The notes beneath the pieces were generated by a model that was given only the letters and a program-made list of their open reading frames with translations, was not told the origin of the DNA and searched no databases. This document shows positions 31,003 to 54,281 of a DNA stretch of 57,764 bases, piece by piece. A program made the position numbers and the translations under genes. The stretch comes from Bacteroidota bacterium (GTDB lineage: Bacteria; Bacteroidota; Ignavibacteria; Tepidaquicellales; Tepidaquicellaceae), in assembly GCA_018266845.1 (NCBI GenBank), contig JAFDZO010000021.1, positions 1 through 57,764 of the forward strand. The letters are read 5' to 3'. Position 1 is the first letter of the stretch; every line of letters begins with the position of its first letter.

Positions 31003-32862
31003 TTACAACTCCTGCAGCGATTTATCTTTTAACGCTTTATTAATCGAATCATCCATAATTCTGTGTGCCAACGGCTCAGTTTCCTTATCAAGTCTTTCCT
31101 GAATTTGCTTTACTAATTCAGTATTTTTTGCTTCGATTGCTGCTTTTAATTCTCTTAACATCGAATTTATAATATCGCTCTCTTCTTTTGTAATACTCTC
31201 TTTTCGGGTTTCAAGAACTTTTTCAACTGCATGAATCAATCTTTCTGCATCGGTCTTCGTTTCTATGAATGTTCTTTCCTTCATATCAGCTCTTGCATTT
31301 TTCAATCCTTCCACAATCATTGCCTCTATTTCGTTATCGGTCAATCCGTATGACGGCTTAACTTCTATTTCCTGTTCTTTATTTGTCTTCAAATCTTTTG
31401 CGCGCACGCGAAGAATTCCGTCTGTATCAATAATAAAACTTACCTCTATCTTAGGCATTCCCGCAGGCTGCGGAGTGATGCCCTTCAAGATAAACTGCGC
31501 AAGACTCCTGTTATCTTTTACAAATTCCCTTTCGCCTTGGAAAACATTTATTACTACTCCCGTCTGGTTATCCATAAAGGTAGTGTAAGTTTCTTTTTGC
31601 TGAGTGGGAATTGTAGTATTCCTAGGAATAAGCACGCTCATTACTCCGCCGATTGTTTCGATTCCGAGTGAAAGCGGATTTACATCAAGCAGCAAAATAT
31701 CTTTTCTGTTGCCTGCAAGAATATCTGCCTGCACTGCTGCGCCAAGCGCTACAACATCATCGGGGTCAATTTCATTGAACGGCTTTTTACCGAAAATTCT
31801 TTCAACTGTTTCTATCACAAGCGGAACCCGTGTAGAGCCGCCTACCATAACAACGGTATCTATTTTATTTAAATCTATTTTTGAATCTCTTATAGCTGCT
31901 TTGCATGCAACTTCAGTTTTGTTCACAATTGTTTTTATAAGCGACTCAAAAAGCTCTCTCGTAATTTTTTTATTCAGCTTAAACTTCGAATCGGGCAGCT
32001 CTTCATTAATTTCAATTTCATTCTCATAGGTTAATTTCTTCTTCGTATCTTCTGCAATTTCGCGCAGCTTGCTTAAATCCTGCTTCGATAAGCTCTGATT
32101 AATTTCTTTTATCAAATAATCCATCAATGCCTTGTCAAAATCATCACCACCTAAATATGTATCGCCGTGAGTTGCAAGTACTTCAAATATTCCGTCTTTC
32201 AATTTTAATATGGAAATATCGAACGTTCCTCCTCCTAAATCATAAACTGCAATTATTTTTTCTTCCGAGCCGGAAACATTTTTATCCAAGCCATACGCCA
32301 AAGCAGCAGCAGTGGGTTCATTGATAATGCGAAGCACATCAAGCCCTGCAATTTTACCTGCATCCTTTGTTGCCTGTCTTTGAGAGTCGTTGAAATAAGC
32401 CGGAACGGTAATCACGCACTTTTTAATATCGTGCCCAAAATATTTTTCTGCGCGTTCTTTTAGTTCGGATAAAATAAATGAGGAGAGTTCAATTGGACTG
32501 TAATCTTTTTGAGCAAGCGTAAGGCGTACCAAGCCCTCCTTCGCCTTCTCGCTTATATTGTACGATACTAAATGAGAATCTCCCTGTATATCTTCGTAGG
32601 ATTTTCCCATTAGCCTTTTTACCGAATAAACGGTTTTATCTGTATCAGTGATAAGATGCTTTTTTGCATCGCTTCCTATCAGAATATTTTTTTCATCGTC
32701 TATAAATATTACCGATGGTACTAATTTATCTTCGCCTTCGTTTGCAATTATTTTCGGAGCGCTTTCATCAACATAAGCTATCAGCGAGTTAGTCGTGCCC
32801 AAGTCAATTCCGACAATAACATCATTTTTCTTTAAATGCTTTGGTATCTCTATCTGCAGCAA
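31003..32862 (-). CDS. hscA: Fe-S assembly Hsp70 chaperone HscA
   Basis: The 619-residue Hsp70 begins [17 protein letters not shown] and has [21 protein letters not shown] and the linker [14 protein letters not shown] before the substrate-binding domain. Its length, lack of the DnaK C-terminal tail and position next to hscB identify HscA. With HscB it drives ATP-dependent release of [2Fe-2S] from IscU, recognising the LPPVK motif that is present in this IscU. Confidence 0.94.
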
Positions 32863-32868
32863 AACTTT

Positions 32869-33447
32869 TTAATGTTTAATCTTTTCTCCGCCGAAAACTT
32901 CGGCATTTATGGTATGAATTAATGTGTTAATGTAATTTCTTTTATGCAATAAAGTCTTAAGCTTCATAAGCTGCTCTATTGTATCATTTCCCTTTTCTGC
33001 CTCTTCATCATATTTTTTGAACACATTGGAAATTTCTTCCAGAATATTATTCACATCGCCATTCAAATCTCTCTTTATATCTGCAAGTTCGTTTACAATC
33101 TCTTCTTTTTTATCAGCGGGAGCATCGTGATGCGCTTCAATCGTTTCCTGTATTTCCATTACCTTCATCAATAAATCCGGCGCAACTGAGTTATCTTTTT
33201 CAGCAAGCAGCTGCGGAGCATCAAGAGCTAAAATATAATTTACACGCGTAAGCGGATCTCTTAAACTTTTATATGCCTGATTTATTTGTGAAGATTTTCC
33301 AAGAGCCTCTAGATATTTTTCTTCTCCAAGATTGAGAAAAAAATCAGGGTGATTTTTTTTACTTAAATCATGATAAATTTTTTCCAGTTCGTTTACATCA
33401 ACATCCAGCTTTTTCGGAATTCCTAATACGTCAAAGTAGTTTGTCAT
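32869..33447 (-). CDS. hscB: Fe-S assembly J-domain co-chaperone HscB
   Basis: A J-domain (residues ~1-75) with H33-P34-D35 is followed by the three-helix C-terminal domain for IscU binding (LLMKVMEIQETIEAH...). The total is 192 residues, slightly longer than the E. coli protein (171) because of the 84-96 linker and helix extension. It recruits IscU to HscA and stimulates its ATPase. Six bp separate it from hscA. Confidence 0.93.
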   Translation of the reverse strand: MTNYFDVLGIPKKLDVDVNELEKIYHDLSKKNHPDFFLNLGEEKYLEALGKSSQINQAYKSLRDPLTRVNYILALDAPQLLAEKDNSVAPDLLMKVMEIQETIEAHHDAPADKKEEIVNELADIKRDLNGDVNNILEEISNVFKKYDEEAEKGNDTIEQLMKLKTLLHKRNYINTLIHTINAEVFGGEKIKH

Positions 33448-33483
33448 TATATAAAGTAACCTATTCCAGTTAAGAATTTAATT

Positions 33484-33626
33484 CTCCCCTTGAGGGGAGT
33501 ACGACCATTAGGTCGGGAGGGGTGTTTTAAGAATTACCAATCTAAAATCTCCACAAAGGAAGTTTATATTTCTCCTTTACCACCCCCCAACCCCCTCCTT
33601 AAAAAAGGAGGGGGCGCAATCGAAAT
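33484..33626. repeat. REP-like palindromes between iscA and hscB
   Basis: CTCCCCTTGAGGGGAG (33484-33499, perfect) is followed by CGACC/GGTCG (33502-33515) and GGGAGGGGTGTTTT. A second element near 33573-33614 has CCCCCTCC/GGAGGGGG arms around a TTAAAAAA centre. The same CCTC-rich palindromes and GGGTG motif occur in the sodA-hscA gap. Confidence 0.75.
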
Positions 33627-33647
33627 CTAAACTTTATAAAAATATAA

Positions 33648-33683
33648 AACCTGACCGTCCGTTAGAACGGAATGAGTCAGGTT
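33648..33683 (-). terminator. Hairpin downstream of iscA
   Basis: AACCTGAC and GTCAGGTT form an 8-bp stem, with an inner CCGT/ACGG pair. It has a T tract on the + strand side (ATTTTTTTT) and a weaker AT-rich stretch on the minus side. Placed between iscA and hscB, it may act as a partial terminator that lowers hscBA expression. Confidence 0.55.
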
Positions 33684-33712
33684 AAAGAAAATTTTTTTTA
33701 CAGCTAATTACT

Positions 33713-34090
33713 CTATACTCCGAATGAGCTTCCGCAGCCGCAGGTTCTCTTTGCGTTAGGATTGTTGAACACAAATCCTCTGCCGTTCAAGCCGTCTGTG
33801 AAATCAAGCTCAGTTCCGCTTAGATACAAATTGCTTTTCATATCAATAAAAACTTTTACGCCGTCTTTCTCAATAATATTATCGCCCGGTCTTTCTTCGG
33901 CATCAAATCCAAGAGTATATGTAAGCCCCGAACATCCACCGCCTTTAATGCCTACACGCAATCCATATTCAGCGGGAATGCTATTTTCTTCCATTATCTT
34001 TTTTACCTCAGTTATCGCCTTATCGGTAATATTAATATCTTCGCTTACTCCGGGAATAAATTCCGGCTTTACGTCTATCGTTTCTGCCAT
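33713..34090 (-). CDS. iscA: A-type iron-sulfur carrier protein IscA/HesB family
   Basis: The 125 residues carry the three A-type cysteines: C53 in GGGCSGLTY, and C117 and C119 in RTCGCGSSF. The domain starts near residue 20 (INITDKAITEVKKIMEE). These proteins carry Fe-S clusters to targets. Assigned iscA by its place directly after iscU; ErpA-like activity is equally possible on sequence alone. Confidence 0.92.
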   Translation of the reverse strand: MAETIDVKPEFIPGVSEDINITDKAITEVKKIMEENSIPAEYGLRVGIKGGGCSGLTYTLGFDAEERPGDNIIEKDGVKVFIDMKSNLYLSGTELDFTDGLNGRGFVFNNPNAKRTCGCGSSFGV

Positions 34091-34116
34091 AGTTAAAAAA
34101 ATTTTAAGTTTTTAGT

Positions 34117-34524
34117 TTAGGCTGCAGCTTCTTCTTTTACAGGCTCGCCTTTTTTCTTTTTGTAATCTTCAATAGCCATCTTTATAGCATCTTCCGCCAA
34201 AACCGAACAGTGAATCTTTACAGGAGGAAGATTTAACTCCTCTACAATTTGTGTATTCTTTATGTTGTATGCTTCGTCAAGAGTTTTACCCTTTAACCAT
34301 TCAGTTGCAAGCGATGATGAAGCAATTGCGCTTCCGCATCCGTATGTCTTGAATTTTGCATCTTCTACAACACCGCTTTCGTTTACTTTTATCTGAAGCT
34401 TCATAACGTCTCCACACTCAGGAGCGCCGACTAAGCCGGTACCGACTGAAGGGTCATTCTTATCAAAGCTTCCGACGTTTCTCGGATTTGTGTAATGGTC
34501 AACTACTTTATCTGAATAAGCCAT
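34117..34524 (-). CDS. iscU: Fe-S scaffold protein IscU
   Basis: The 135 residues match IscU with C37 (PECGD, D39), C63 (YGCGSAIASSS) and C106 (IHCSVLAEDAI), all at E. coli numbering, and LPPVK at 99-103 for HscA binding. It is the scaffold on which IscS sulfur and iron form [2Fe-2S]. A short lysine/glutamate/alanine tail follows. The neighbouring genes are the expected partners. Confidence 0.97.
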   Translation of the reverse strand: MAYSDKVVDHYTNPRNVGSFDKNDPSVGTGLVGAPECGDVMKLQIKVNESGVVEDAKFKTYGCGSAIASSSLATEWLKGKTLDEAYNIKNTQIVEELNLPPVKIHCSVLAEDAIKMAIEDYKKKKGEPVKEEAAA

Positions 34525-34566
34525 TTTATTAAATCTCCTTAATAATATATTTTAAATTTTAAATTC

Positions 34567-35781
34567 TTAGTGAGCAGCCCATTGGACTGATTTTAAGTCA
34601 ATTCCGTCTTTGAACATTTCCCATAACGGTGAAAGCTCTCTTAAGTGATTGACCGTTTCAATTGTTTTCTCAATTGCAAAATCTACTTCTTCCTCGGTTG
34701 TGAATCTTCCGAGACCGTATCTTATAGATGAGTGAGCAAGCTCATCGCCTCTTCCTAATGCTTTTAACACATAGGATGGTTCAAGAGTTGCCGATGTGCA
34801 GGCGCTGCCTGAAGATACTGCTAAATCCTTTATACCCATCATAAGACCTTCACCTTCAACGTATTCAAAGCTTACGTTTACATTGTGAGGAAGTCTTTCT
34901 GTCGGATGCCCGTTCAAATAGCTATACTCTACTCTTTCTAAGAAAGTATTAATCATCTTATCTCTTAATCTTATCAGTCTTGCCGATTCTTCTGCCATTT
35001 CATTTTTACAGATTTCGCATGCCTTGCCAAATCCTACAATACCGGGAACGTTCAATGTTCCGCTTCTCATCCCTCTTTCGTGTCCGCCGCCGTGCATCTG
35101 CTCGGCTAATTTTACTCTCGGACTTCTTTTTCTTACGTATAATGCTCCGACACCTTTTGGTCCGTACATTTTATGAGCAGTAAAGCTCATTAAATCAATA
35201 TTCATTGCATTCACATCAACGGGGATTTTTCCAACGCCTTGTGTTGCGTCTGTGTGGAAGATAACACCTTTCTCGCGGCAGATTTTTCCTATTTCTGCAA
35301 CAGGCTGAATTGTGCCGATTTCATTGTTAGCCATCATAATGGTAACAAGAATAGTAGTATCCTTAATTGCGTTTCTTAATGCATCAAGGTCAACCATTCC
35401 GAATTCATCAACGCCAAGATATGTTACTTCTTTGCCGTGTCTTTCAAGATATTTGCAGGTATCTATTACAGCTTTATGTTCTGTAGGAAGAGTGATTATA
35501 TGATTTCCTTTCGGCGCATACATTTCTGCAATACCCATAATAGCAAGATTATCTGATTCGGTTGCGCCGCTGGTAAAGACAATTTCTTTAGAAGTTGCGC
35601 CGATTAAATCAGCAATCTGCTGTCTTGCTTTTTCAACAGCTTCCTCTGCTTCCCAGCCGAACTGGTGACTTCTGCTTGCTGCATTTCCGTAAACGTTTGT
35701 GAAGTACGGCATCATTGCTTCAAGCACACGCGGGTCCATAGGCGTGGTAGCGTTGTGGTCCATGTAAATCGGGAAATTCAT
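34567..35781 (-). CDS. iscS: Cysteine desulfurase IscS
   Basis: The 404 residues, equal in length to E. coli IscS, begin [18 protein letters not shown]. The PLP lysine is in [18 protein letters not shown], and the catalytic loop is SSGSACTSA with C328. It takes sulfur from cysteine and hands it to IscU and tRNA-thiolation partners. It lies 42 bp upstream of iscU and 179 bp downstream of iscR. Confidence 0.97.
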
Positions 35782-35834
35782 TTTAAATTTTTTCTCCTGT
35801 GAATTTTATTTTAAACTTTTGTTGAACTAATTTT

Positions 35835-35953
35835 AATTCGTTGAACTCGTTGCGACGCTCTAGCGTCGTAACGTTATTTAAACCGCCCCTCAGTCCTCTC
35901 CTTAGTAAGCTAACGCATATCATCGTCCCGCTTTAGTGGGAGACGGGAAAAGT
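35835..35953. repeat. Short palindromic repeats in the iscR-iscS gap
   Basis: CGACGCT/AGCGTCG (35853-35868) is a perfect 7-bp inverted repeat with a 2-nt centre, and a CCCGC...GGGAGACGGG cluster follows near 35929-35947. They belong to the same kind of dispersed palindromic sequence seen in other gaps of this window. Confidence 0.6.
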
Positions 35954-35960
35954 CATTGGT

Positions 35961-36365
35961 TTACACAAAATCAGAAACAGTCTTGCTCTTAAAAATATCT
36001 TCAATTTCCTTCTGCATTTTCGTAACCGGTTGCTTTATGGTACATAATTCTTTCAATGTGCATTTTCCGTTTTCGTTGTGCGAACATTGACATTCGGTCA
36101 AAGCCATATCGCCGTCAATTGTGTGCATTAAAAAAAACAAATCAATCTCATCAGGTTTTTTAAGAAGCTGATAGCCGCCTTTTGTACCCTGAATAGAAGA
36201 AAGCACTTTATCCTTTTTTAACTTCTGAAGAATTTTTGCAAGCAGTTCGTAAGGGATATTGTGCTTTTCGGAAATTTCCTTAGCTGTTACAATTCCCCCT
36301 TCAGCCAATGCAAAATGCTTCAACGCCATCAGAGCGTATTCCATTTTTTTCGATAATCTTACCAT
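35961..36365 (-). CDS. iscR: Rrf2-family regulator IscR
   Basis: The 134 residues have an N-terminal winged helix (YALMALKHFAL...ISEKHNIPYELLAKILQKL) and a cysteine cluster C92, C94, C102 and C108 (TECQCSHNENGKCTLKELC), near the [2Fe-2S] ligand positions of E. coli IscR (C92, C98, C104). Spacing between the ligands is altered, so the exact ligand set is uncertain. It should sense Fe-S status and repress the isc genes; the palindrome 12 bp upstream of its ATG supports autoregulation. Confidence 0.92.
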   Translation of the reverse strand: MVRLSKKMEYALMALKHFALAEGGIVTAKEISEKHNIPYELLAKILQKLKKDKVLSSIQGTKGGYQLLKKPDEIDLFFLMHTIDGDMALTECQCSHNENGKCTLKELCTIKQPVTKMQKEIEDIFKSKTVSDFV

Positions 36366-42898: not shown

Positions 42899-43603
42899 TT
42901 AATATAAAGATTCGATTACTCCTTTGTAATCTCTTCCAATGGGAATTGAAACTCCGTTGACTTCCACCGCCTCCGCATTGAATGATTCTATTCTTTCAAG
43001 CGATATAATAAACGACCTGTGTATCCTTTTAAACAAAGATGCCGGAAGTCTTGACTCTATTTCACTTGTGCTGATTTTTGCCATGTATGTTTTTTTTGCT
43101 GTAACAATTTTTACATACTCCTTCTGGCTTTCGATATAAATCAAATCAGCAAATAATATCTTAACTTTCTTTTTTTGTATATTCAGAAAGATAAAATCCT
43201 GCGTGCCTGATTTTATTTCCTGCTTTTCATTTTTTTCATGGCTATGCTTCACCTTGTTCACCGCTTTCAGGAACCTCTCAAACTCATAAGGCTTTAGCAG
43301 GTAATCAACTACACTCAAATTAAACCCCTCTACAGCATATTCGTGATAAGCCGTCGTAATTATTACAGCAGGCGGATTTGTCAAGGTTTTTAAAAAAGCT
43401 ATCCCCTTCAATTTAGGAAGATGTATATCCAAAAAAATAAGGTCCACTTTGTTTTCCCGCAAAAAATCTGCGGCTAACATCGCGTTCTTAAACCTTCCTT
43501 TAAGCTCCAAAAAATGAACCTCCCCTATGTAATCCGATAAAATTTTTGCTGCTAATGGCTCATCTTCGATAATGATACACTTAATTTTGGACATGACTTG
43601 CAA
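42899..43603 (-). CDS. LytTR-family response regulator
   Basis: A receiver domain (residues 5-125) with acidic pocket EDE and phospho-acceptor D59 (FLDIHLP), followed by a LytTR DNA-binding domain from about residue 140 (LNIQKKKVKILFADLIYIES... FKRIHRSFIISLERIESF). 234 residues, or 231 from the ATG of MSKIKC. It overlaps the kinase gene by 23 nt and is its cognate partner. Confidence 0.92.
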   Translation of the reverse strand: MQVMSKIKCIIIEDEPLAAKILSDYIGEVHFLELKGRFKNAMLAADFLRENKVDLIFLDIHLPKLKGIAFLKTLTNPPAVIITTAYHEYAVEGFNLSVVDYLLKPYEFERFLKAVNKVKHSHEKNEKQEIKSGTQDFIFLNIQKKKVKILFADLIYIESQKEYVKIVTAKKTYMAKISTSEIESRLPASLFKRIHRSFIISLERIESFNAEAVEVNGVSIPIGRDYKGVIESLY

Positions 43604-44630
43604 GGTTTATTTTTAACTCAGCAGTAAAGGTTGCTTCTTTTTGCAAAGTATTCAAGCTAAATTCTCTGTACAAAAGCTCAAGCTGTCTTCTCAAGTTTGC
43701 CAGTCCAATATTTTCTTTCACTTTTAGCTCTTGGTCTGCGGGTTCACTTGAATTTTTGACAATATAGCTTAACTGCTTTCTATTTACCGATAAATTAATT
43801 GAAATAAAAGGGCTGTTCCCTGCTTCGGATACTCCATGCTTAAAAGCATTTTCTACAAATGGAATTAAAAGGAACGGAGGTATAGCCTGCTTCACATCTT
43901 CAATCTCGTAGTTAAAGCTTACTTCCAAGGTATCATCATACCTCAGTTTCTCAAGCTCAATATAATCGCTTATTAGCTTTAGCTCTTGCTCTACAGTAAT
44001 GAACTCTCCGCGCGTTTCCTTTAAAATAAATCGTAAGATTTTAGAAAGCCGCAGTATGGATTCAGGAGCGGCGTCTGATTTATCTCTGGCAAGAGAATAA
44101 ATATTGTTCAATGTGTTGAACAAAAAGTGAGGATTAATTTGAGATTTAAGAAAGTTTAGCTCAGCCTGCTGCTTCTCAATTGTAAGCTGCTGGGCTGCGA
44201 GTTTTAGTTTTCTATAGTTATAAAAATGTTTCAGTACTCCGAAAAAAATTATCGAAGGAATACCCAATGAAGCTTGCGCTGTAACACCATGCATAAGACT
44301 TTTGAATTCTACCAGCGGTGAAAAAACATGAACCGTAACACCAATCTCCCTCCATAGATAAAGCCCAAAAGAGTTTATAAGTAAATGCGCAATTATCAAT
44401 GGAAGCGCAAAGAAAAGTTTTTTCCACGATGTCCTTAAAAAGGGCAGTGTAAACTCAAATAGTACAAAGTTGAAGAACAGGATAAAAATAATTTGCCAAG
44501 ACAAGTTTATTACTCTAACAAATGCTGACTCGGGATAGCTGATGCCTTCCACAAGACCGGTAATAATAAAATAGATTACGGCAATCCAAACATAGATATT
44601 AAATTCTTTGCCTTTAAAAAATGACTTCAT
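43581..44630 (-). CDS. LytS/YehU-type membrane sensor histidine kinase
   Basis: The 349 residues have four membrane helices (~10-140), then the His_kinase (PF06580-type) region LNFLKSQINPHFLFNTLNNIYSL with phospho-acceptor H168, and the ATPase N box PPFLLIPFVENAFKHGV. There is no extracellular ligand domain, so signal sensing may be in the membrane helices. It shares overlap with the LytTR regulator. Divergent from DUF4395. Confidence 0.92.
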   Translation of the reverse strand: MKSFFKGKEFNIYVWIAVIYFIITGLVEGISYPESAFVRVINLSWQIIFILFFNFVLFEFTLPFLRTSWKKLFFALPLIIAHLLINSFGLYLWREIGVTVHVFSPLVEFKSLMHGVTAQASLGIPSIIFFGVLKHFYNYRKLKLAAQQLTIEKQQAELNFLKSQINPHFLFNTLNNIYSLARDKSDAAPESILRLSKILRFILKETRGEFITVEQELKLISDYIELEKLRYDDTLEVSFNYEIEDVKQAIPPFLLIPFVENAFKHGVSEAGNSPFISINLSVNRKQLSYIVKNSSEPADQELKVKENIGLANLRRQLELLYREFSLNTLQKEATFTAELKINLASHVQN

Positions 44631-44710: not shown

Positions 44711-44894
44711 ATACAAATATTACATAAAAAGTTTGTCTTTTTTAGTTGACCAAAATCTGCTTTGCATATACTCAAACTTGCAATATGTTGACACACTATT
44801 TTAGCTATAAACAATATTATATATTTTTGTTTTCAGGATAACATAAAACTTAGCAGCAGCTAAATAAAATTTAGAAATAAAATTATATACATCA

Positions 44895-45566
44895 ATGAGA
44901 GAAATTCTAAAGTTTGGTGAACGAGTTGAAGGGTTCGAGATAGCAGTTCTTAATGAAAGAGAAATCAGAGCCGGAGCGGGACTTCTATTTGTACTATTCT
45001 TCTTTTCAGTAAACAGCGCAATACTAAAAGGCGATTTTACTGCTCTTAAATACTCTGTAACGTTATTTCTCACCGATTTAATAATCAGAGTATTAATCAG
45101 TCCGCGTTTCTCCCCGTCGTTGATTCTTGGAAGGATGATAGTAAGAAATCAAACACCGGAATACGTTGGCGCAAAGCAAAAGAAATTTGCGTGGATTATA
45201 GGAATTGTACTGGCTTCAATAACATTCATTCATTTAGTGATTTACAATTCGAGAAGTCCGGTTACGGGGTTGATATGCCTGATATGTCTGGCTTTTTTAT
45301 TTTTTGAAACTTCTTTTGGTATATGTCTTGGCTGCAAATTTTATCCGTTTTTCACCCGCGGTAAAATTCAATATTGCCCGGGAGAAATCTGTGATGTAAA
45401 AACTAAGCAAGAGATTCAGAAAATTTCCTTTTCGCAAATTCTGATAACCATTTCTTTTATCGCGTATTCAATTGTTCTGATTTTCCTATTTGGTGATAAT
45501 TTCAAAAAGCAGCCGGTTGATTTATTGGCAGGTGAAAAGAAAAGCTCTGAGCAATTAAGCAAATAG
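44895..45566 (+). CDS. DUF4395 membrane protein
   Basis: The 223 residues have about five hydrophobic helices. Family marks include LNEREIRAGAGLLF, PSLILGRMIVRNQTPEYVGAKQKKFAW and ETSFGICLGCKFYPFF, the latter with paired cysteines (CLGC). A further CPGEIC pair follows. DUF4395 proteins often occur next to rhodanese or thioredoxin genes and are presumed to handle sulfur or thiol groups in the membrane; function is unproven. It starts a + strand set with the two sulfur-transfer genes, 27 bp before the next. Confidence 0.85.
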   Translation: MREILKFGERVEGFEIAVLNEREIRAGAGLLFVLFFFSVNSAILKGDFTALKYSVTLFLTDLIIRVLISPRFSPSLILGRMIVRNQTPEYVGAKQKKFAWIIGIVLASITFIHLVIYNSRSPVTGLICLICLAFLFFETSFGICLGCKFYPFFTRGKIQYCPGEICDVKTKQEIQKISFSQILITISFIAYSIVLIFLFGDNFKKQPVDLLAGEKKSSEQLSK

Positions 45567-45592
45567 AAGCCTTCTAATTTTTTGATGTTAAA

Positions 45593-47560
45593 ATGGATAC
45601 TATAGAACAGAATTCACAAAAAGCTTTACTGGAGCTTGAACAATCAATAAGCTCAGCAGCAGCTTCTTATTCCAATGTGCATAGAGGAGCTGGATACTGC
45701 TCGGAAATAACAACTCAATTGTATGAAAAAGCGAAAGGGATTGTCCTTGATTTCCTAAATCTGAACGCAAAAAAATACTGCGTAATTTTTTGCACCCCGG
45801 AACATTCACGCCGCTTGCGGCAGAAACTTAAAAATGAGGACTACAAAATTATCACAAGTTGTGAAATCTGTTTGCCGGTTGGATTACATGCTCTTGCCAT
45901 TAAAACAAAAGCAGTACCTCGAGGCGTTCCCATTTTGAAAGGCGGAAGCACGGTGAAAATTGTATCTTCACATTCTGTAATGTGGGCAGATGCTCCTCAA
46001 AAACTGGAAGCAGGAACCCCTTCGGCAATAAATGCAATTGCATTTGCAGCAGCTTTACAGATTTGCAAAAAATATAAAATTAATTCGCTCAAGTATATTC
46101 AGCAATCTGATTTTTTAACCTTTGATTTATTGCACAATGATAGTCTTGCCAGATACCATGGGCAGGAACTTTACATAAAAGTGAAAAATCAATTGAGGGG
46201 ACGCGCTTTAAAAGTACCCGTTGAAACAGGCGAAAATTCATTCACAAGTCTTGATAATGCAGCGAGCACTCCTGCGCTTCTGCCCGTCTTAGATGCTGCT
46301 CTTAAGGCTCTGCGTATCCTGCCTTCGCGCAGCCCGGAAATTATTGGTGAAGTAAAAAAAATACTATCTGATTTTTTTGAGATAGATTTAGAGAAATTTG
46401 AGATAATATTTACCGGAAACACTACAGAAGCTGTTAATATAGCAGCACAGTTTATTCAGGCAGAGTATGAACAAACTTCAAACCTTGTTATTCTTAGTTC
46501 CGAACTTGAACATAACTCCAATGAACTTCCATGGCGGTTTATTCCGGGAGCAACTTTAATAAGGCTTCCCGTTGACAAGGAGGGTTTTATTTCTCACTCG
46601 GAATTGGAAGAGGTACTAAAAAATTATAACACGGAAAAAAAATACGGAGAAAAAAGAATCAGAGTAGTTGCAATCAGCGGAGCTTCGAACGTTCTCGGTA
46701 CTTTTAACAATATTGAAGCAATCAGTAAAATTACTCACAAATATAACTCAAGACTATTCGTAGATGGAGCACAGTTGACAGCGCACCGCAGCATTAATAT
46801 AGATTATGCCGGAGTTGATTATTTTGCATTTTCAGGACATAAAATTTACGCGCCTTTCGGAACCGGCGCGCTTATGATCAGGAAAGAATTTGTTAAAGCT
46901 GACGCTGACGAACTTGAATTAATTAAATCTTCGGGAGAAGAAAATATTGTAGGAATAGCTGCTATAGGAAAAGCTATTTCAATTATGCAAAGAATAGGAA
47001 TTGATACAATCGAAGAAAATGAAAAAAAGCTGATAAAAAAATTACTGAAAAGCATTTCAGAAATGCAAGATTTGGAGTTTTTTGGAATTAAAGATTGGGA
47101 GATAGAAAAATTATATCAGCGGGCAGGGGTGATTTCATTTTGCATGAAAGGGATACCCCATAATCAAGCTGCAAAATATCTGTCTGAAAAAAGCGCCATA
47201 GGTGTTCGCAGCGGATGCTTCTGCGCGCACATACTTTTGCGAAAGCTTCTGAAAATAAATGCAATTACTTTTGTCCTTACAAAGATTGCATTCAAATTAA
47301 CACCTCGACTTGCAAGGTCTTTTCTTCCCGGACTTTTAAGAGTTAGTATAGGATTACAAAACGACGAGTCAGATATAGATAGATTAATCAGCACCTTGAA
47401 AGAAATTATTGAATCAAAACCTACTGCCGTTAACAGAATTTTAGCAAAGTATAGAAGCGGAAGTCCGTTTGTAAATAAATCCTATGCGAGTGAAAAGTTT
47501 AAAATTTTTACTGAAAATTATGTAAACAAAGTTTACCCAAATATCGAAACCGGCATTTAG
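45593..47560 (+). CDS. Class-V aminotransferase/cysteine desulfurase-like protein with degenerate N-terminal copy
   Basis: The 655 residues contain a full class-V domain from about residue 217: SLDNAASTPALLPV, FTGNTTEAVN, ISGASNVLGTFN, VDGAQLTAHR, FSGHKIYAPFGTG with PLP lysine K417, and GVRSGCFCAHILL with C542 and C544 at the catalytic-loop position. The first ~205 residues show only the edge motifs of a second such domain (SYSNVHRGAGYCSE early, LEAGTPSAINAIAFAAAL late) and lack the lysine. So the protein is a fusion of a shrunken and a complete copy. It may mobilise sulfur from cysteine or a related substrate. Confidence 0.82.
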   Translation: MDTIEQNSQKALLELEQSISSAAASYSNVHRGAGYCSEITTQLYEKAKGIVLDFLNLNAKKYCVIFCTPEHSRRLRQKLKNEDYKIITSCEICLPVGLHALAIKTKAVPRGVPILKGGSTVKIVSSHSVMWADAPQKLEAGTPSAINAIAFAAALQICKKYKINSLKYIQQSDFLTFDLLHNDSLARYHGQELYIKVKNQLRGRALKVPVETGENSFTSLDNAASTPALLPVLDAALKALRILPSRSPEIIGEVKKILSDFFEIDLEKFEIIFTGNTTEAVNIAAQFIQAEYEQTSNLVILSSELEHNSNELPWRFIPGATLIRLPVDKEGFISHSELEEVLKNYNTEKKYGEKRIRVVAISGASNVLGTFNNIEAISKITHKYNSRLFVDGAQLTAHRSINIDYAGVDYFAFSGHKIYAPFGTGALMIRKEFVKADADELELIKSSGEENIVGIAAIGKAISIMQRIGIDTIEENEKKLIKKLLKSISEMQDLEFFGIKDWEIEKLYQRAGVISFCMKGIPHNQAAKYLSEKSAIGVRSGCFCAHILLRKLLKINAITFVLTKIAFKLTPRLARSFLPGLLRVSIGLQNDESDIDRLISTLKEIIESKPTAVNRILAKYRSGSPFVNKSYASEKFKIFTENYVNKVYPNIETGI

Positions 47561-47674
47561 AAATCAACAAAAAAAATTATGAAAAAAATAATTCAACACA
47601 GATACTTCAGCCAATCCGAAAATGATTGTGAAACGACAATAAGAATTACGCACTTTCTATTTTCAAAAACTAAT

Positions 47675-49288
47675 ATGAAAGTTTTGCTTGTAATTTTATT
47701 TTTATTGTTAGCTGCATTACATCCTGAATTTGTATTCGGACAGAATGGAGTTTCGGGCAGCCTTGTAAACGCTGAATGGCTTCAAAGCAATATTAATGAC
47801 ACAAACATACTAATATTGGATGTGTCGATGCCAAATGTATATGTTGAGAAACATATCCCCGGCGCAATTAACGCAGTATTATTCACTTACGGAACAACAG
47901 AAAAACCCGTTGGACAAATGGAGCTTTTATTTCAGTCATTCGGGATAAGTACAAACAAAAAAATTGTGCTTTACGATGAGGGCGGAACGTTTACAGCAAC
48001 AAGGTCTTTTTTCTCGTTATTCTATTACGGTTTCCCGGTTGAAAATCTATTTATTCTGGATGGCGGTTTATCAAAATGGCTGGAAAAAGGTTATGCCTCA
48101 ACTAATGAAACAGCGCAAGCTAAATCTAAGGGTAACTTCAAAATTAGCAGTATTAATGAGTCGGTTAGAATCAAACTTACTGAATTCATAAGCGCAACGG
48201 GAGATTTAGAAAACAACTCCATAGTAGATGCGCTCGGACCTGATTGGCATTTTGGCGGAACACAATTTTTTGACCGAACAGGGCATATACCAAATTCCAT
48301 AATGATTCCGGTATCCGATTTTTTCAATCCTGATAAAACTTTCAAATCACAGGATGACATGAAAAAAATTTTTGATTACTATAAAATAAGTGATAAAAAG
48401 CAAATCCTAACTCATTGCGGAGGCGGAATTGCAGCAAGCGTTCCGTTCTTTGCATTAAGGTTTATTCTCAAAAATACTGCAGCAAAATTATTTATAGAAT
48501 CGCAGATTGGATGGCTATCTGACCCCAGAGGGCTTCCAATGTGGACGTATGACGCTCCCAATTTATTAAGAGAAACGAATTGGCTTCAAACTTGGGGAGG
48601 AAAAAAACTTAAAATGTATGGAGTATCTACAGTCTGCATTATTGATATCCGTTCACCTGAGGACTTTGCCAAAGGGCACTTGCCGTTTGCTATAAATATC
48701 CCATCCGGTATTTTTATGGACCACTTTAATGATTCAGAAAAATTATCAAAAATTCTTGGAGAAGCAGGCATAAATCCATCTTTCGAGGCTGTTATTGTCT
48801 CAGGCTCGGGACTAACAAGGGAATCAGCATTAGTTTTCCTGGCATTGGAATCCATAGGACAAAATAAAATATCAATATTTGTGGATACGATGGAAAGAAG
48901 TGAGAGCTTGGGGTATAAAATGACCTCTGACATTTCTCCCGGCAAGCCGGTCTCATATTCTACAAATAAAAATGAAAAAATGTTTATTTCAGATTTAAGT
49001 AGTTCTAAAGGAGTTTATCAAAAAATTCTGATAACCTCTTCACCTGACACACATCAAAGCGATGAAGGATTAACAAAGACTGCAGTTCCATTTTCCGAGT
49101 TAATAAATGAAGATGGTAAACCAAAAGAAGCAGTAGAGATATGGCGAGCATTAACTAAAGCCGGAGTTCCAAGATATGGTGAGCTTGTATGCTGTTCGGA
49201 TGACATCAGAGAAAGCGCTTTGCATTATTATATATTGAAAATAATGGGTTACCCTGATGTAAAAGTATTGATAAATGGAAAAAAATAA
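47675..49288 (+). CDS. Exported multi-rhodanese sulfurtransferase
   Basis: From ATG 47675 (537 aa) a signal peptide (MKVLLVILFLLLAALHPEFVFGQ) is followed by two full rhodanese domains, as in mercaptopyruvate sulfurtransferases, and two further ones. Loop 1 (YDEGGTFTATR, ~100) lacks cysteine; loop 2 (LTHCGGGIAAS) has C248; loop 3 (VSGSGLTRES) has S376 where cysteine is expected; loop 4 (VCCSDDIRES) has C506/C507. An ATG at 47579 adds 32 residues before the signal and is less likely. It probably handles thiosulfate or persulfide sulfur in the periplasm. Confidence 0.85.
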   Translation: MKVLLVILFLLLAALHPEFVFGQNGVSGSLVNAEWLQSNINDTNILILDVSMPNVYVEKHIPGAINAVLFTYGTTEKPVGQMELLFQSFGISTNKKIVLYDEGGTFTATRSFFSLFYYGFPVENLFILDGGLSKWLEKGYASTNETAQAKSKGNFKISSINESVRIKLTEFISATGDLENNSIVDALGPDWHFGGTQFFDRTGHIPNSIMIPVSDFFNPDKTFKSQDDMKKIFDYYKISDKKQILTHCGGGIAASVPFFALRFILKNTAAKLFIESQIGWLSDPRGLPMWTYDAPNLLRETNWLQTWGGKKLKMYGVSTVCIIDIRSPEDFAKGHLPFAINIPSGIFMDHFNDSEKLSKILGEAGINPSFEAVIVSGSGLTRESALVFLALESIGQNKISIFVDTMERSESLGYKMTSDISPGKPVSYSTNKNEKMFISDLSSSKGVYQKILITSSPDTHQSDEGLTKTAVPFSELINEDGKPKEAVEIWRALTKAGVPRYGELVCCSDDIRESALHYYILKIMGYPDVKVLINGKK

Positions 49289-49508: not shown

Positions 49509-50564
49509 TCACTTCAGCAAAATCATTTTTTTAGTCTGATTAAATCCGTTTGCCGAAACAGAATAAAAATAAATTCCACTGGATAAACCGGCTGCATTGA
49601 AATCTGCCGTGTAATATCCCGCCTGCTTAACTTCATTAACCAATGTCCTTACTTCCCTTCCCGAAACATCGTAAACTTTTAAGTTAACCAATCCGTCTTT
49701 AGGAATTTCAAAATTTATTTTTGTAGAAGGATTGAATGGATTAGGATAATTCTGAGAAACTGCAAACGATTTCGGAACATCTATTATTACTTCATTTGTA
49801 AGCTCGTAGTACTTTATGTTACCGTTAAAATCAGTTTGCTTCAATCTGTAAATATATTTACCTGACTGTAAATTCGATTCACTGAAAGAATAATTTTTTA
49901 CTTCTGATGAATTCCCGGCACCATTCACAAAACCTGCTTCTGTATATTCACCGCCTTCTTTTTTTCTTTCAATCGAGAATCCTTTATTGTTCTGTTCTGA
50001 AGCAGTGCTCCATTTTAACTCTACAGTATTCTTATTTATTATAGAAGTAAATGATGAGAGTTCCACCGGCAGTAAAGCATTTTCCGGATTTACAAATGTA
50101 AGAGCAACATCATCTCCTATATCTGTTATTACCGCAGTAAAAGTAGTATGCCATGTGATATTATGATTTGCATTAGGATTTGTAATCGGAAGTCTAATCA
50201 TACCAACTAAAGTTGAGGTTACCGGCACATCTGCTCCGGGATTTGTATTCAATGTTACTTCTACTGAACGGGCAACTCCTCCGTAAATCGCTGTGTACAT
50301 GCCTCCGTAGTTTCCATTGTTTGCTACATCCCATATACCTTTGGTTTGTAATGCTGCTCCTGAATTATTAATTGCTGAATTATTAAGATTAAACACAAAG
50401 CTTCCTTCACCTAAATTCCATGCAGTTCCTCCTGTTCTTTTCAGAAAAACTGATACATCTATGTTAGTACCGTTATTTGTCTGTGTGATTGACACTTCTC
50501 CTGTCTGCGCTTTTAATATATAAGGCATCAGTGATAACAGTATTACATAAAAAATCTTTTTCAT
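49509..50564 (-). CDS. Secreted protein with cohesin-like beta domain and T9SS sorting domain
   Basis: The 351 residues start with a signal peptide (MKKIFYVILLSLMPYILKAQ). Residues ~22-165 are a beta-sandwich region (EVSITQTNNGTNIDVSVFLKRTGGTAWNLGEGSFVFNLN read in parts) of cohesin-like type; then a fibronectin-like section (LPVELSSFTSIINKNTVELKWSTASEQNNKGFSIERK) and a T9SS type A domain (QNYPNPFNPSTKINFEIP ... KKMILLK). It lies 36 bp downstream of the dockerin-bearing gene on the same strand, so the two may bind each other. Confidence 0.82.
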   Translation of the reverse strand: MKKIFYVILLSLMPYILKAQTGEVSITQTNNGTNIDVSVFLKRTGGTAWNLGEGSFVFNLNNSAINNSGAALQTKGIWDVANNGNYGGMYTAIYGGVARSVEVTLNTNPGADVPVTSTLVGMIRLPITNPNANHNITWHTTFTAVITDIGDDVALTFVNPENALLPVELSSFTSIINKNTVELKWSTASEQNNKGFSIERKKEGGEYTEAGFVNGAGNSSEVKNYSFSESNLQSGKYIYRLKQTDFNGNIKYYELTNEVIIDVPKSFAVSQNYPNPFNPSTKINFEIPKDGLVNLKVYDVSGREVRTLVNEVKQAGYYTADFNAAGLSSGIYFYSVSANGFNQTKKMILLK

Positions 50565-50600: not shown

Positions 50601-53600
50601 TTAAGGTCTTTGTTTTGCTATTCCTGAGTTATTCCTTACTATTGTTCTGTCCGCTGCGTTCACTACTCCATTGCCGTCTAAGTCATACCTTGTATATCCG
50701 GTTACGCCTCCATTGTTTCTTACAAGAGTTCTATCGGTTGCATTTACAACTCCGCTTCTGTTTACATCACCGCTAAAAAGGCAGTATTTGCCGGCTTTAA
50801 GCTTTAAGTTGCTTCCGTAAGCATTAGCCGGGTTCGATGTGAAATCATATGAGTTGCTACCGTTTTTAGTGAACGGTTCACCGCCTGTTTTGCTCCAGGT
50901 TTCAATGCAGTTTCTGTGAACGATTGCAAGATAGTATGTTCCGCTTGGCGCATATTTAAAATTGAAATCTGCTAGGAAGGTCATAGAGTCAATCACTGAT
51001 ACTGCCGAATCCACTATTTCGCTTCCGGTTAAATCCCATAGGAAAGCCCTTACTGTATCACGCATTCTTAGCTGGTTCGTCTGCGTATTGTATAACCCTT
51101 CGGGAATGATTTTCACGTTATAAATTGTAATACTTTCAAGCGATGCAGTATCTGCATTAGAATATGCGCTTATATTAAAATGTATATCCCTTGCTGCAAT
51201 TTTATAAATGTAGGTTGAATCTGAGCTTGCGGTTAAATCGCTGAATGAATTTGTTGTTACCTCGCTTATTTTTCTTCCGTTCCTATAAACAAGGTAGTCT
51301 CTGAGGTCTGCTTCAGTGTTGGCCCTCCAGGTAAGATTAATTGAGTTAGTCATTCCGGATGCTGCCAGATTTGCAGGGGCATCCGGTGATAAGTTATCTG
51401 TTGAGCGGCCGCTTACTACTTCACTTCTGAAGTACTCGCTTTCAGTTGTATTTCTGGCTGTGATTCTGAAAAAATAATTTACAGAATCAGATGGCGTTGA
51501 AGCTGTATAGGAATAAAATAAATTATTAGTGGCAGGGATGGTACCAATAGTCTGCCATGCAAACTGCCCGTTGAAAGGCGCATAGCTTCTTTCTACTATA
51601 TAATCCGTTATACGGCTTATTCCTGATGCATCGTAACCGCTTCTTGCCCACTTTATATTCACGTTACCTCCCTGGTCTCTTGCAACATCTTTTACATAAT
51701 TCAATACCGGACTTGCCGAAGGACTTGATGATAAATATAGAAATGCATTTCCGCCGGCAGTACCAGAGCTATTGCCTATCTGAAAACTTGTTAAAATATC
51801 ACCAATACCATCGTTATTATAATCCCCAGCATAAGTAGCAAGATACTTTGGATAAATATTGGTATCCGGCATGGTTTCGAGTTGTATATCCGGAAAATCA
51901 TCAACTGTTTTACCTCCAAAATAAACTCGAGCATCAAGATACCTTGATATAATAATATCATCATAACCATCATTGTTTACATCACCTAATGAAAGACTTT
52001 TGAAAATAGCTTGTTCATAATCATTAATTACGAAACTAGGCTGTAGAGTAGGAAACAAGCCGCCTAAGTAAATTGTAATTTTATTATTGCTACTAATAAC
52101 ATAATCTGAATATCCGTCTCCATTTATGTCACCATTACTTGCAAATGTACGGCCTGTACCTATAAGGAGAGATTGAACTTTATAGACTCCATTAGACCTA
52201 CCATAATATAATACGTGTCTCCCGGTGGTTTGATAGCCGGGTTCCCCAACAATAAAATCCGAATAACCATCTTTATTAAAATCACCTCCTCCTGAAACAC
52301 AAAATCCCCATTGTGTCCCAAAATTATCTGGTTTCAGAACAATATCAGGCGTATTATTCATGTTTGTTCCTCCAAAATAAACATAAACAAATCCTGTATC
52401 TGTAGGATTTATACCAGGTGCACCTACAATCACATCTGAAAATCCATCTCTGTTAATATCACCGCCTGTAGAGACCGAGTATCCAAACATGGCATTGTTA
52501 CTTCCTGAAGATAAAAAAATATCAGGATAACCATTTGGAGATGAGCCTCCCAAGTATATATAAGCTCTACCGACCCCATTGTAGGGCGCTCCAACAATAA
52601 TATCAGAATAACCGTCTCCATTGACATCACCTGCACAATCAACTGATGCACCTAAGGCATCTGGAGTTTGTCCAATTCCTATTAAATTTATTGATACCTG
52701 ATTTTCAGGATAAGCACCCCCTAATTTCAAAACAGCTTTTCCTACACCATTATTATAAGAATTTGCTCCAATTACTACATCGTCAAAACCGTCACCATTG
52801 AAATCACCCGCTTTTGATATGCTGGCACCAAATCCATCTGAAGAACCAGTACCGGAGAAAACTATATCGTGAACATCATTTCCCGACATGGAATTTTGAT
52901 AAATATATACTGCGCCATTTGGACTTTTGGCAGGAGCGCTGATAAGCATTTCAAAATATCCGTCATTATTCAAATCTCCTGCATATGAGACACTTGTGCC
53001 AATTTGACCGGAACCATTTAAAAAAGTCATCCCAAAAGTCGTTGAAATATTACCATTTGGATTTGCATTACCATAAGCTAAAAATGCTTCGCCATTTAAA
53101 TTTGAATAATTTGGTGCTCCTATTAAAATGTCAGTATAACCGTCTCCGTTTATATCTCCGGCCTGAGAAATTGAAGTGCCAATTTTGTTTAAATAGTTTA
53201 AAGTGGTATATACGGCATTAGGTTCACCTGTAATAGCTATTCCCCCTAAGTATAAATATACACATCCTGCTGACTGCATGTACATTGACTGATAAGGAGC
53301 TGAGACCATAAAGTCGGAATATCCGTCTCCGTTAAAATCACCGGCTGACGAAACACAGGAGCCGAATCTATCACCTGTAGACTGATACAAGCCGTTTAAA
53401 TAAATTCCATTAAGATTTGTTAATACGGCTTTACCATAAAAAAGAAGAGCTTTACCTGAATGTGTGGGTGAAGCAACATCATTGTTTCCACCTACAAGAA
53501 TATCCGAATATCCATCAGCATTAACATCTCCTGCACAGGCTATAGAAGTACCAAATAACATGTTTGTCACCTGGCCCTCAAATGTATAGTCAGCTGTGAA

Positions 53601-54281
53601 ATCCGGGAATATACCACCTAAGTATAAATATACCCTTCCTAATTGATTTGCAGCAATTGGCGAACCTATGATTATATCAGAAAATCCGTCTCCATTAAAA
53701 TCACCTGCAGTAGAAATTGAGTTTCCGATACTTTCATTAGCTGAACCGTAAATAACTGCATCAGCCAAAGAGTTCATTCCCACTCCTCCGTAATAAATAT
53801 AAACTTTTCCAACCTGTGTTCCTCCTATTTTGTAGCCTTTAGCTCCCACTATTATATCATCATACCCGTCACCGTTGAAATCGCCTGCAGATGCCACTGA
53901 CGAGCCAAATAAATCTGCTGCAGTTTCTCCTGTAAGTATTACATCTGGTATTATATCATATGAGGGACCGCCGTAATAAATATATGCTTTACCTGTTTCT
54001 GAAGTTGGATATGGAGCGCCGACAATTATATCAGGGTATCCATCTCCATTTACATCACCTGCAGTTGCGGTTGAGTTTCCAAATAATGAATTTGCAGTCT
54101 GACCATACAAAGTACTCATACTCAGAGCATCTGATTCGATTTCTATTGTTTTTTTACCGGTAAGATTTGCATCATCCAGCTTTATTATTTTCGTATCGCT
54201 GCTTTGGGAGAAAGCATTTCCGAACGATAAAAGGATGAGTAAGAAAGTAAATGAAAATGTTTGTATTTTCTTTGCTCTCAT
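50601..54281 (-). CDS. Large FG-GAP/beta-propeller protein with FN3 and dockerin domains
   Basis: The 1226 residues begin with a signal peptide (FTFLLILLSFGNAFSQ). I count 14 FG-GAP repeats of ~60 residues, each with a Ca-binding loop like GDVNGDGYPDIIVG; this suits two seven-bladed beta-propellers as in integrin alpha chains. Two fibronectin-like domains follow, then a ~60-residue C-terminal dockerin-type pair (GDVNRSGVVNATDRTLVRNN and YDLDGNGVVNAADRTIVRNN). There is no T9SS domain. Likely an extracellular adhesive or scaffold protein, held through a cohesin-like partner. Confidence 0.88.
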   Translation of the reverse strand: MRAKKIQTFSFTFLLILLSFGNAFSQSSDTKIIKLDDANLTGKKTIEIESDALSMSTLYGQTANSLFGNSTATAGDVNGDGYPDIIVGAPYPTSETGKAYIYYGGPSYDIIPDVILTGETAADLFGSSVASAGDFNGDGYDDIIVGAKGYKIGGTQVGKVYIYYGGVGMNSLADAVIYGSANESIGNSISTAGDFNGDGFSDIIIGSPIAANQLGRVYLYLGGIFPDFTADYTFEGQVTNMLFGTSIACAGDVNADGYSDILVGGNNDVASPTHSGKALLFYGKAVLTNLNGIYLNGLYQSTGDRFGSCVSSAGDFNGDGYSDFMVSAPYQSMYMQSAGCVYLYLGGIAITGEPNAVYTTLNYLNKIGTSISQAGDINGDGYTDILIGAPNYSNLNGEAFLAYGNANPNGNISTTFGMTFLNGSGQIGTSVSYAGDLNNDGYFEMLISAPAKSPNGAVYIYQNSMSGNDVHDIVFSGTGSSDGFGASISKAGDFNGDGFDDVVIGANSYNNGVGKAVLKLGGAYPENQVSINLIGIGQTPDALGASVDCAGDVNGDGYSDIIVGAPYNGVGRAYIYLGGSSPNGYPDIFLSSGSNNAMFGYSVSTGGDINRDGFSDVIVGAPGINPTDTGFVYVYFGGTNMNNTPDIVLKPDNFGTQWGFCVSGGGDFNKDGYSDFIVGEPGYQTTGRHVLYYGRSNGVYKVQSLLIGTGRTFASNGDINGDGYSDYVISSNNKITIYLGGLFPTLQPSFVINDYEQAIFKSLSLGDVNNDGYDDIIISRYLDARVYFGGKTVDDFPDIQLETMPDTNIYPKYLATYAGDYNNDGIGDILTSFQIGNSSGTAGGNAFLYLSSSPSASPVLNYVKDVARDQGGNVNIKWARSGYDASGISRITDYIVERSYAPFNGQFAWQTIGTIPATNNLFYSYTASTPSDSVNYFFRITARNTTESEYFRSEVVSGRSTDNLSPDAPANLAASGMTNSINLTWRANTEADLRDYLVYRNGRKISEVTTNSFSDLTASSDSTYIYKIAARDIHFNISAYSNADTASLESITIYNVKIIPEGLYNTQTNQLRMRDTVRAFLWDLTGSEIVDSAVSVIDSMTFLADFNFKYAPSGTYYLAIVHRNCIETWSKTGGEPFTKNGSNSYDFTSNPANAYGSNLKLKAGKYCLFSGDVNRSGVVNATDRTLVRNNGGVTGYTRYDLDGNGVVNAADRTIVRNNSGIAKQRP

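Follow-up and report, generated by a model that had tools for sequence, protein, structure and literature searches.

Do three consecutive genes for a DUF4395 membrane protein, a long class-V protein and an exported rhodanese form one sulfur relay across the membrane, as a preliminary description of this DNA proposed, and why does the class-V protein carry a second, shrunken copy of its own domain? The window, i.e. the whole stretch of 57,764 nucleotides analysed here, is one whole contig within a 3.53-Mb genome of 46 contigs, Ignavibacteria-like to judge from its relatives. The fused class-V enzyme is the most interesting object of the locus.

Genes of the locus and their setting

The three plus-strand open reading frames were intact and consecutive, and belonged to the Pfam families first assigned to them (Table 1). 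A LytTR-type regulatory pair was divergent from them; its kinase scored 94.5 with PF06580 (cut-off 25.2) and its regulator 57.4 with PF04397 (cut-off 22.6), both above threshold.

Table 1. Features of the locus (window coordinates; aa, amino acids)
Feature	Position	Strand	Evidence or remark
ISC operon (HscA, HscB, IscA, IscU, IscS, IscR)	31003-36365	-	same window, ~7 kb further upstream
LytTR response regulator	42899-43603	-	PF00072 9.4e-18 and PF04397 1.8e-15
LytS-type histidine kinase	43581-44630	-	PF06580 4.6e-27; divergent from the operon
Three GTtgAC-like repeats in 21-bp steps, candidate LytTR sites	44743-44750, 44764-44771, 44785-44792	+	promoter periodicity
DUF4395 membrane protein, 223 aa	44895-45566	+	ORF list; PF14340 8.8e-24; alignment of 10 relatives; hydropathy
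Fused class-V (SufS-like) protein, 655 aa	45593-47560	+	Pfam Aminotran_5 2.2e-73; AlphaFold2
N-module, aa 1-190	45593-46162	+	desulfurase fold without PLP core
V29-H30-R31-G32-x-G34, equivalent of the SufS His55/Arg56 loop	45677-45694	+	alignment, phmmer
Gly-rich loop, beta-hairpin (beta-latch), Pro and EAGTP, aa 117-143	45941-46021	+	equivalent of SufS about 251-279
C-module, aa 190-655	46160-47557	+	SufS monomer fold and PLP site, without His55/Arg56 loop and latch
K417, PLP Schiff-base lysine (SGHK)	46841-46843	+	invariant, 29/29
C542-x-C544, C544 aligned to SufS Cys364	47216-47224	+	C544 29/29, C542 28/29
Rhodanese protein, 569 aa from first ATG	47579-49288	+	Pfam Rhodanese 4.2e-35, three stretches
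Exported four-domain rhodanese from likelier start M33	47675-49288	+	two inactive-active pairs
Rhodanese domain 2 active-loop Cys (HCGGGIAAS)	48416-48418	+	invariant, 14/14
Rhodanese domain 4 active-loop Cys	49190-49192	+	invariant, 14/14; next Cys variable

The GC content of the fused gene (0.374) was close to that of its neighbours (0.365 and 0.369), and its GC3 matched likewise. With native operon genes on either side as well, an assembly chimera was considered unlikely. The parts of the locus are not a product of chance, because every part recurred in other genomes. A role of the class-V gene as the housekeeping Fe-S desulfurase was also considered unlikely, since the window holds a separate ISC cluster. 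Downstream of the three genes, two large proteins were encoded on the minus strand (49509-50564 and 50601-54281), and the former ended, judged by eye, in a C-terminal sorting-like tail of the type IX-secretion-like kind, PNPFNPSTKINFEIP.

Two complementary modules in the class-V protein

The class-V protein had been described as an enzyme with a shrunken second copy that lost its PLP lysine. This copy was present, at the N-terminus (N-module), but its conservation and its complementarity to the C-terminal copy (C-module) had been overlooked. When aligned to single-copy relatives, the two copies had complementary gaps. In comparisons with solved structures, phmmer matched residues 26-57 to SufS 58-89 and 110-155 to SufS 252-297, and HMMER matched residues 270-434 to SufS 94-250 and 457-553 to SufS 292-380. 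These pieces alternated, indicating that one desulfurase was covered about once by the two copies together, the 26-57 and 110-155 matches filling the gaps of the C-module relative to SufS.

The missing parts could be delimited by spacing. The stretch from K417 to G454 was 38 residues long (36 in one) in 13 fused proteins versus 57 in 16/16 single-copy relatives, a deletion of 19 residues (21 in one) that removed the beta-latch and the Gly-rich loop. The stretch from P227 to N276 had 50 residues in fused versus 59-60 in single-copy proteins, and the ~10 missing residues corresponded to the VHRG loop region. In all fused proteins the C-module was without a beta-latch and Arg56 loop of its own, and both were located in the N-module. 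The window protein and each of 13 homologues contained VHRG and EAGTP exactly once each, both in the N-terminal part, and NTTE, SxHK and RxGxxC were confined to the C-terminal module. At the position of SufS Arg92, a cross-dimer residue, K or R was found in 16/16 single-copy proteins versus G, S, T or A in 12/13 fused ones, as expected if the partner helix is gone. K417 and the PLP-stacking H307 were invariant in 29/29 aligned sequences, as were, in the alignment, the catalytic cysteine C544 and both arginines, the Cys-loop arginine included.

In SufS, the Gly-rich loop and hairpin (beta-latch) act in the active site of the adjacent monomer (PMC10011822), and the Arg56 loop likewise serves the adjacent monomer and touches the substrate sulfur (PMC11408855). 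These trans-acting parts match the remnants in the N-module, indicating that the N-module kept the trans parts and the C-module the cis parts. Judged from the alignments, the class-V protein is a conserved two-module chain, not an enzyme with a decaying copy attached.

The full chain was modelled by AlphaFold2 from a 29-sequence alignment with pLDDT 90.8 and pTM 0.93, both modules being confidently placed. Residues 190-613 of the C-module superposed on SufS-type chains with Z about 30-31 and rmsd 1.9-2.0 over ~370 residues. The N-module alone (residues 1-164) matched SufS 2-300 discontinuously with Z up to 9.3, a value of modest weight as the model had pLDDT 66. The latch (112-137) had pLDDT <50 when the N-module was folded alone and averaged ~73-84 in the full chain, which fits a latch packing on the C-module; that the latch needs the C-module to pack on is only suggested, as the two runs also differed in alignment.

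Comparison with known class-V enzymes

The C-module shared with SufS, CsdA and CsdB the fold (Z about 30 over ~370 residues, 24-29% identity), the PLP lysine, the active-site His, the Cys on an RxGxxC loop and the Arg379 equivalent. Those enzymes are homodimers whose subunits each carry a latch, an Arg56 loop and a PLP site of their own, whereas the fused protein had its trans parts confined to the N-module and its cis parts to the C-module of one chain. The NCBIfam SufS model gave 245.4 bits against a cut-off of 475.1, and no cut-off of a named desulfurase was reached.

The closest sequence kin of both modules (about 30-36% identity) was a single-copy class-V family of ~470 aa, which shared the CxCAH loop with the fused protein and displayed the motifs H/N-SN-D/E-LPW and HKxYAPF. 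In 53/60 of its members one VHRG and one EAGTP, and no more than one of each, lay in one intact domain. Structurally, the C-module matched best with the family 2A encapsulin cargo desulfurase (8kg1), on a par with SufS chains. This cargo enzyme likewise has an N-terminal extension, but that of the fused protein is a folded, desulfurase-derived module, and identity with the encapsulin cargo was rejected (NF041166 score 186.1, cut-off 800). A PF19307 search of the genome for an encapsulin gave no hit, and the control search was silent too. PADLOC matches to SspA (1.2e-36) and DndA (3.8e-34) were generic class-V matches, the NCBIfam DndA model scoring 92.8 against 480.

A widespread family of fused proteins

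An earlier scan of genome contigs with the single sequence returned no homologue, the patterns being poorly conserved. An alignment-based scan, whose other retained hits were single-copy proteins, yielded 13 full-length fused homologues with 39-45% identity along most of their length. They came from five Bacteroidota (one an Aquimarina), two Lokiarchaeota, two Chloroflexota, two Myxococcales (Myxococcota), one Aminicenantes and one WOR-3; the family is thus widespread, with at least 13 members besides the window protein, in bacteria and in Asgard archaea. Identity to the window protein was 39-50% in the N-module and 40-50% in the C-module, and 17-37% in the linker.

In a quick maximum-likelihood tree a branch with support 100 separated the fused set (13 rows) from the other rows, consistent with monophyly and one origin. 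The nearest kin of the window protein were the Lokiarchaeota and Aminicenantes proteins. The window protein and the 13 homologues were thereby united by N-terminal VHRG and EAGTP, by C-terminal-only NTTE, SxHK and RxGxxC, and by apparent common descent. No description of a fused desulfurase of this type was found in the open-access literature searched.

The exported rhodanese

The preliminary description had counted four rhodanese loops, two of them without cysteine, and the alignment bore this out: in 14/14 homologues, domains 1 and 3 had no loop Cys, and domains 2 and 4 had one. The loop cysteines are C280 and C538/C539 when counted from the first ATG, and C248 and C506/C507 when M33, the likelier start, is residue 1; C507, the second Cys of domain 4, was peculiar to the window among 14 homologues. 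The two halves of the protein were homologous to each other (hhalign probability 97%) and represent a duplicated inactive-active pair. Two-domain rhodaneses (thiosulfate and 3-mercaptopyruvate sulfurtransferases) likewise have an inactive first and an active second domain, but here the pair is duplicated and exported. The score with the 3-mercaptopyruvate sulfurtransferase model NF008557 (99.7) was below its cut-off of 250.

Homologues 50-53% identical were present in 15/390 other genomes of the class. One rhodanese match (L174, G255:C36:18987-20609) was listed with a single TAA in its interior.

The DUF4395 protein

The protein scored 84.7 with PF14340 (gathering threshold 24.5) and had about 5-6 hydrophobic segments by hydropathy. 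That it is a membrane protein with cysteine pairs had been noted correctly, but instead of two loose CxxC-like pairs the alignment of 10 relatives revealed six invariant cysteines, C128xxC131, C144xxC147 and C161x4C166. To our knowledge DUF4395 has no known function, and it was rarely named in the literature searched.

DUF4395 was found beside a rhodanese, a TauE-type exporter and an MBL-fold hydrolase on a Microbacterium plasmid, and beside a thioredoxin-domain protein on a Thiothrix plasmid. It adjoined a single-copy class-V gene on a Methylobacterium aquaticum plasmid and in one other proteobacterium (L158), so the pairing of class-V and DUF4395 genes may have arisen twice. These neighbours make a sulfur or thiol role of DUF4395 likely. 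Heavy-metal genes surrounded DUF4395 and the single-copy class-V gene at two loci (CusA-type and P-type ATPase genes at L080; at L158 a MerA-like reductase, identified by eye), a setting which suggests a tie of DUF4395 to thiol or metal stress.

DUF4395 occurred in 13/44 genomes of the same order, the window included, and in the others of them no class-V or rhodanese gene adjoined it. It was present somewhere in 6/13 genomes with the fused enzyme, which is little above the order-wide rate of 30%, so this co-occurrence says little.

A recurrent operon with a divergent LytTR pair

The proposed relay had been made to depend on linkage of the three genes in other genomes, and there the genes parted company: DUF4395 and the rhodanese were linked elsewhere, and the class-V gene was not. 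Four other genomes had DUF4395 adjoining the rhodanese, again behind the divergent LytTR pair. In 7/15 rhodanese genomes its slot was taken by two Sulf_transp (PF04143, YeeE/YedE family) half-genes and a small rhodanese; 4/15 had neither DUF4395 nor Sulf_transp. Across the window and the 15 genomes, DUF4395 and a YeeE/YedE-type transporter never stood beside the rhodanese together. A LytS-type kinase was divergent beside the rhodanese in 8/15 other genomes, and several of the remaining loci ended at contig edges. The rhodanese and the divergent LytTR pair make up a recurrent operon.

YeeE/YedE proteins import thiosulfate or sulfur (PMC11582611, PMC11073785), and their presence in the DUF4395 slot speaks for a sulfur step at the membrane, next to a periplasmic sulfurtransferase. 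DUF4395 resembles YeeE/YedE proteins (TsuA, SoxT; PF04143) in being a membrane protein, in having conserved cysteines and in its operon slot, but it had no PF04143 match at E up to 1, DUF4395 being the sole Pfam family listed, and its transport function is putative. The small rhodanese that followed the Sulf_transp half-genes at five loci (e.g. L177, 11665-12363) was a single domain with an N-terminal hydrophobic stretch, and had no counterpart in the DUF4395 version of the operon.

No DUF4395 or related rhodanese gene was found in the flanks (up to ~7 kb where the contig allowed) of the 13 fused homologues, and no class-V gene near the rhodanese at the 15 other rhodanese loci. Only in the window is the fused gene inserted in the rhodanese operon, and a three-gene relay is specific to this genome at best.

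When the divergent promoters were scanned for motifs in general, AT-rich matches prevailed. A period of 21 over eight divergent promoters scored 134, against a mean of 109 and a maximum of 118 in 300 shuffles, for a GTnnAC-like repeat consensus that was picked post hoc, after viewing, and with a signal that was weak in some of the eight.

A proposed mechanism and its alternatives

The fused protein is probably best explained as a pseudo-dimer made of a single chain, in which one composite site resembles that of type II desulfurases; its gene would have joined a LytTR-controlled envelope operon. A gene would have been duplicated and fused, and labour then split between the halves. The C-module would hold PLP on K417 and provide the catalytic C544 and the substrate-binding arginines. 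The N-module, its PLP core lost, would supply in cis the parts that come in trans from the second subunit of SufS, namely the His/Arg loop, the Gly-rich loop and the beta-latch covering the persulfide. We infer in this way the composite active site itself, the pseudo-dimer geometry, and the activity and substrate: the predicted chemistry is that a cysteine-type substrate is cleaved at its C-S (or C-Se) bond in a PLP-dependent reaction, with a persulfide left on C544 and perhaps handed to C542. A precedent is the glycine decarboxylase P-protein, in which one of two fused fold-type-I halves is without PLP.

A functionless N-terminal duplicate in decay, with the C-module working alone or as a homodimer, would explain why the N-module is without PLP lysine and PLP core. 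However, conservation of the N-module equals that of the C-module in several phyla and in two domains of life, and the C-module is without latch and His/Arg loop in 13/13 homologues; neither fits a decaying copy, so that decay was rejected on this equal conservation and the reading is very improbable. It is unlikely, too, that the N-module is a regulatory or docking domain which replaces the SufE/SufU site or binds a partner, the enzyme acting on another substrate (sulfoxide, selenocysteine or sulfinate) or as a class-V lyase or epimerase, although this overlaps in part with the composite-site explanation. Type II desulfurases need SufE/SufU, class-V enzymes perform many reactions and the gene neighbours of the 13 homologues are varied, all in keeping with such a domain, but the residues retained in the N-module are ones that give the active site its shape and the persulfide its cover, and C544 and the Cys-loop arginine are invariant.

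For the locus as a whole, the fused enzyme would most likely add or drain sulfur on the cytoplasmic side, and the operon would handle envelope sulfane sulfur, DUF4395 taking beside the exported rhodanese the slot held in relatives by YeeE/YedE transporters. One co-evolved membrane-crossing relay, from cysteine through desulfurase and DUF4395 to the periplasmic rhodanese, is doubtful. The linkage of DUF4395 to the rhodanese, its exchange with Sulf_transp and its place beside a single-copy class-V gene in two proteobacteria lend the preliminary proposal partial support, but the fused gene was missing from the operon in 15/15 other rhodanese genomes, and 13/13 fused homologues were without both partners nearby. 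Conversely, the fused gene could have jumped by chance between DUF4395 and the rhodanese and share only their promoter, which is somewhat unlikely: the linkage was seen once, the gene is absent from a same-genus genome and its closest kin are Lokiarchaeota and Aminicenantes proteins, whereas its GC and GC3 resemble those of the neighbours, its reading frame is intact, and a sulfur enzyme in a sulfur operon would be an unlikely accident. Tentatively, a split-module family with one site might here feed or drain sulfane sulfur through a DUF4395 carrier to the exported double rhodanese under LytTR control, and DUF4395 might then represent a new kind of sulfur carrier in the membrane, exchangeable with YeeE/YedE; any flow across the membrane is conjectural, and the operon reading stands as a solid lead.

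In the symmetric dimers formed by SufS-type desulfurases, the active site of each subunit is completed by the other, so that the role of a single site, the trans latch and the cross-talk between sites are difficult to tell apart. On the composite-site reading, the fused family has separated them, with one chain, one site, and the trans and cis parts in different modules, and makes latch function and site-to-site coupling directly testable. DUF4395 gains a concrete hypothesis, that of a membrane sulfur protein swapping with YeeE/YedE transporters.

Two further kinds of gene recurred in these neighbourhoods. DUF4386 membrane proteins were seen near the fused class-V gene at two loci (L088, L093) and near the rhodanese at three (L200, L202, L206), and zinc-type dehydrogenases near DUF4395 (L056), near the rhodanese (L203) and at the same two fused class-V loci.
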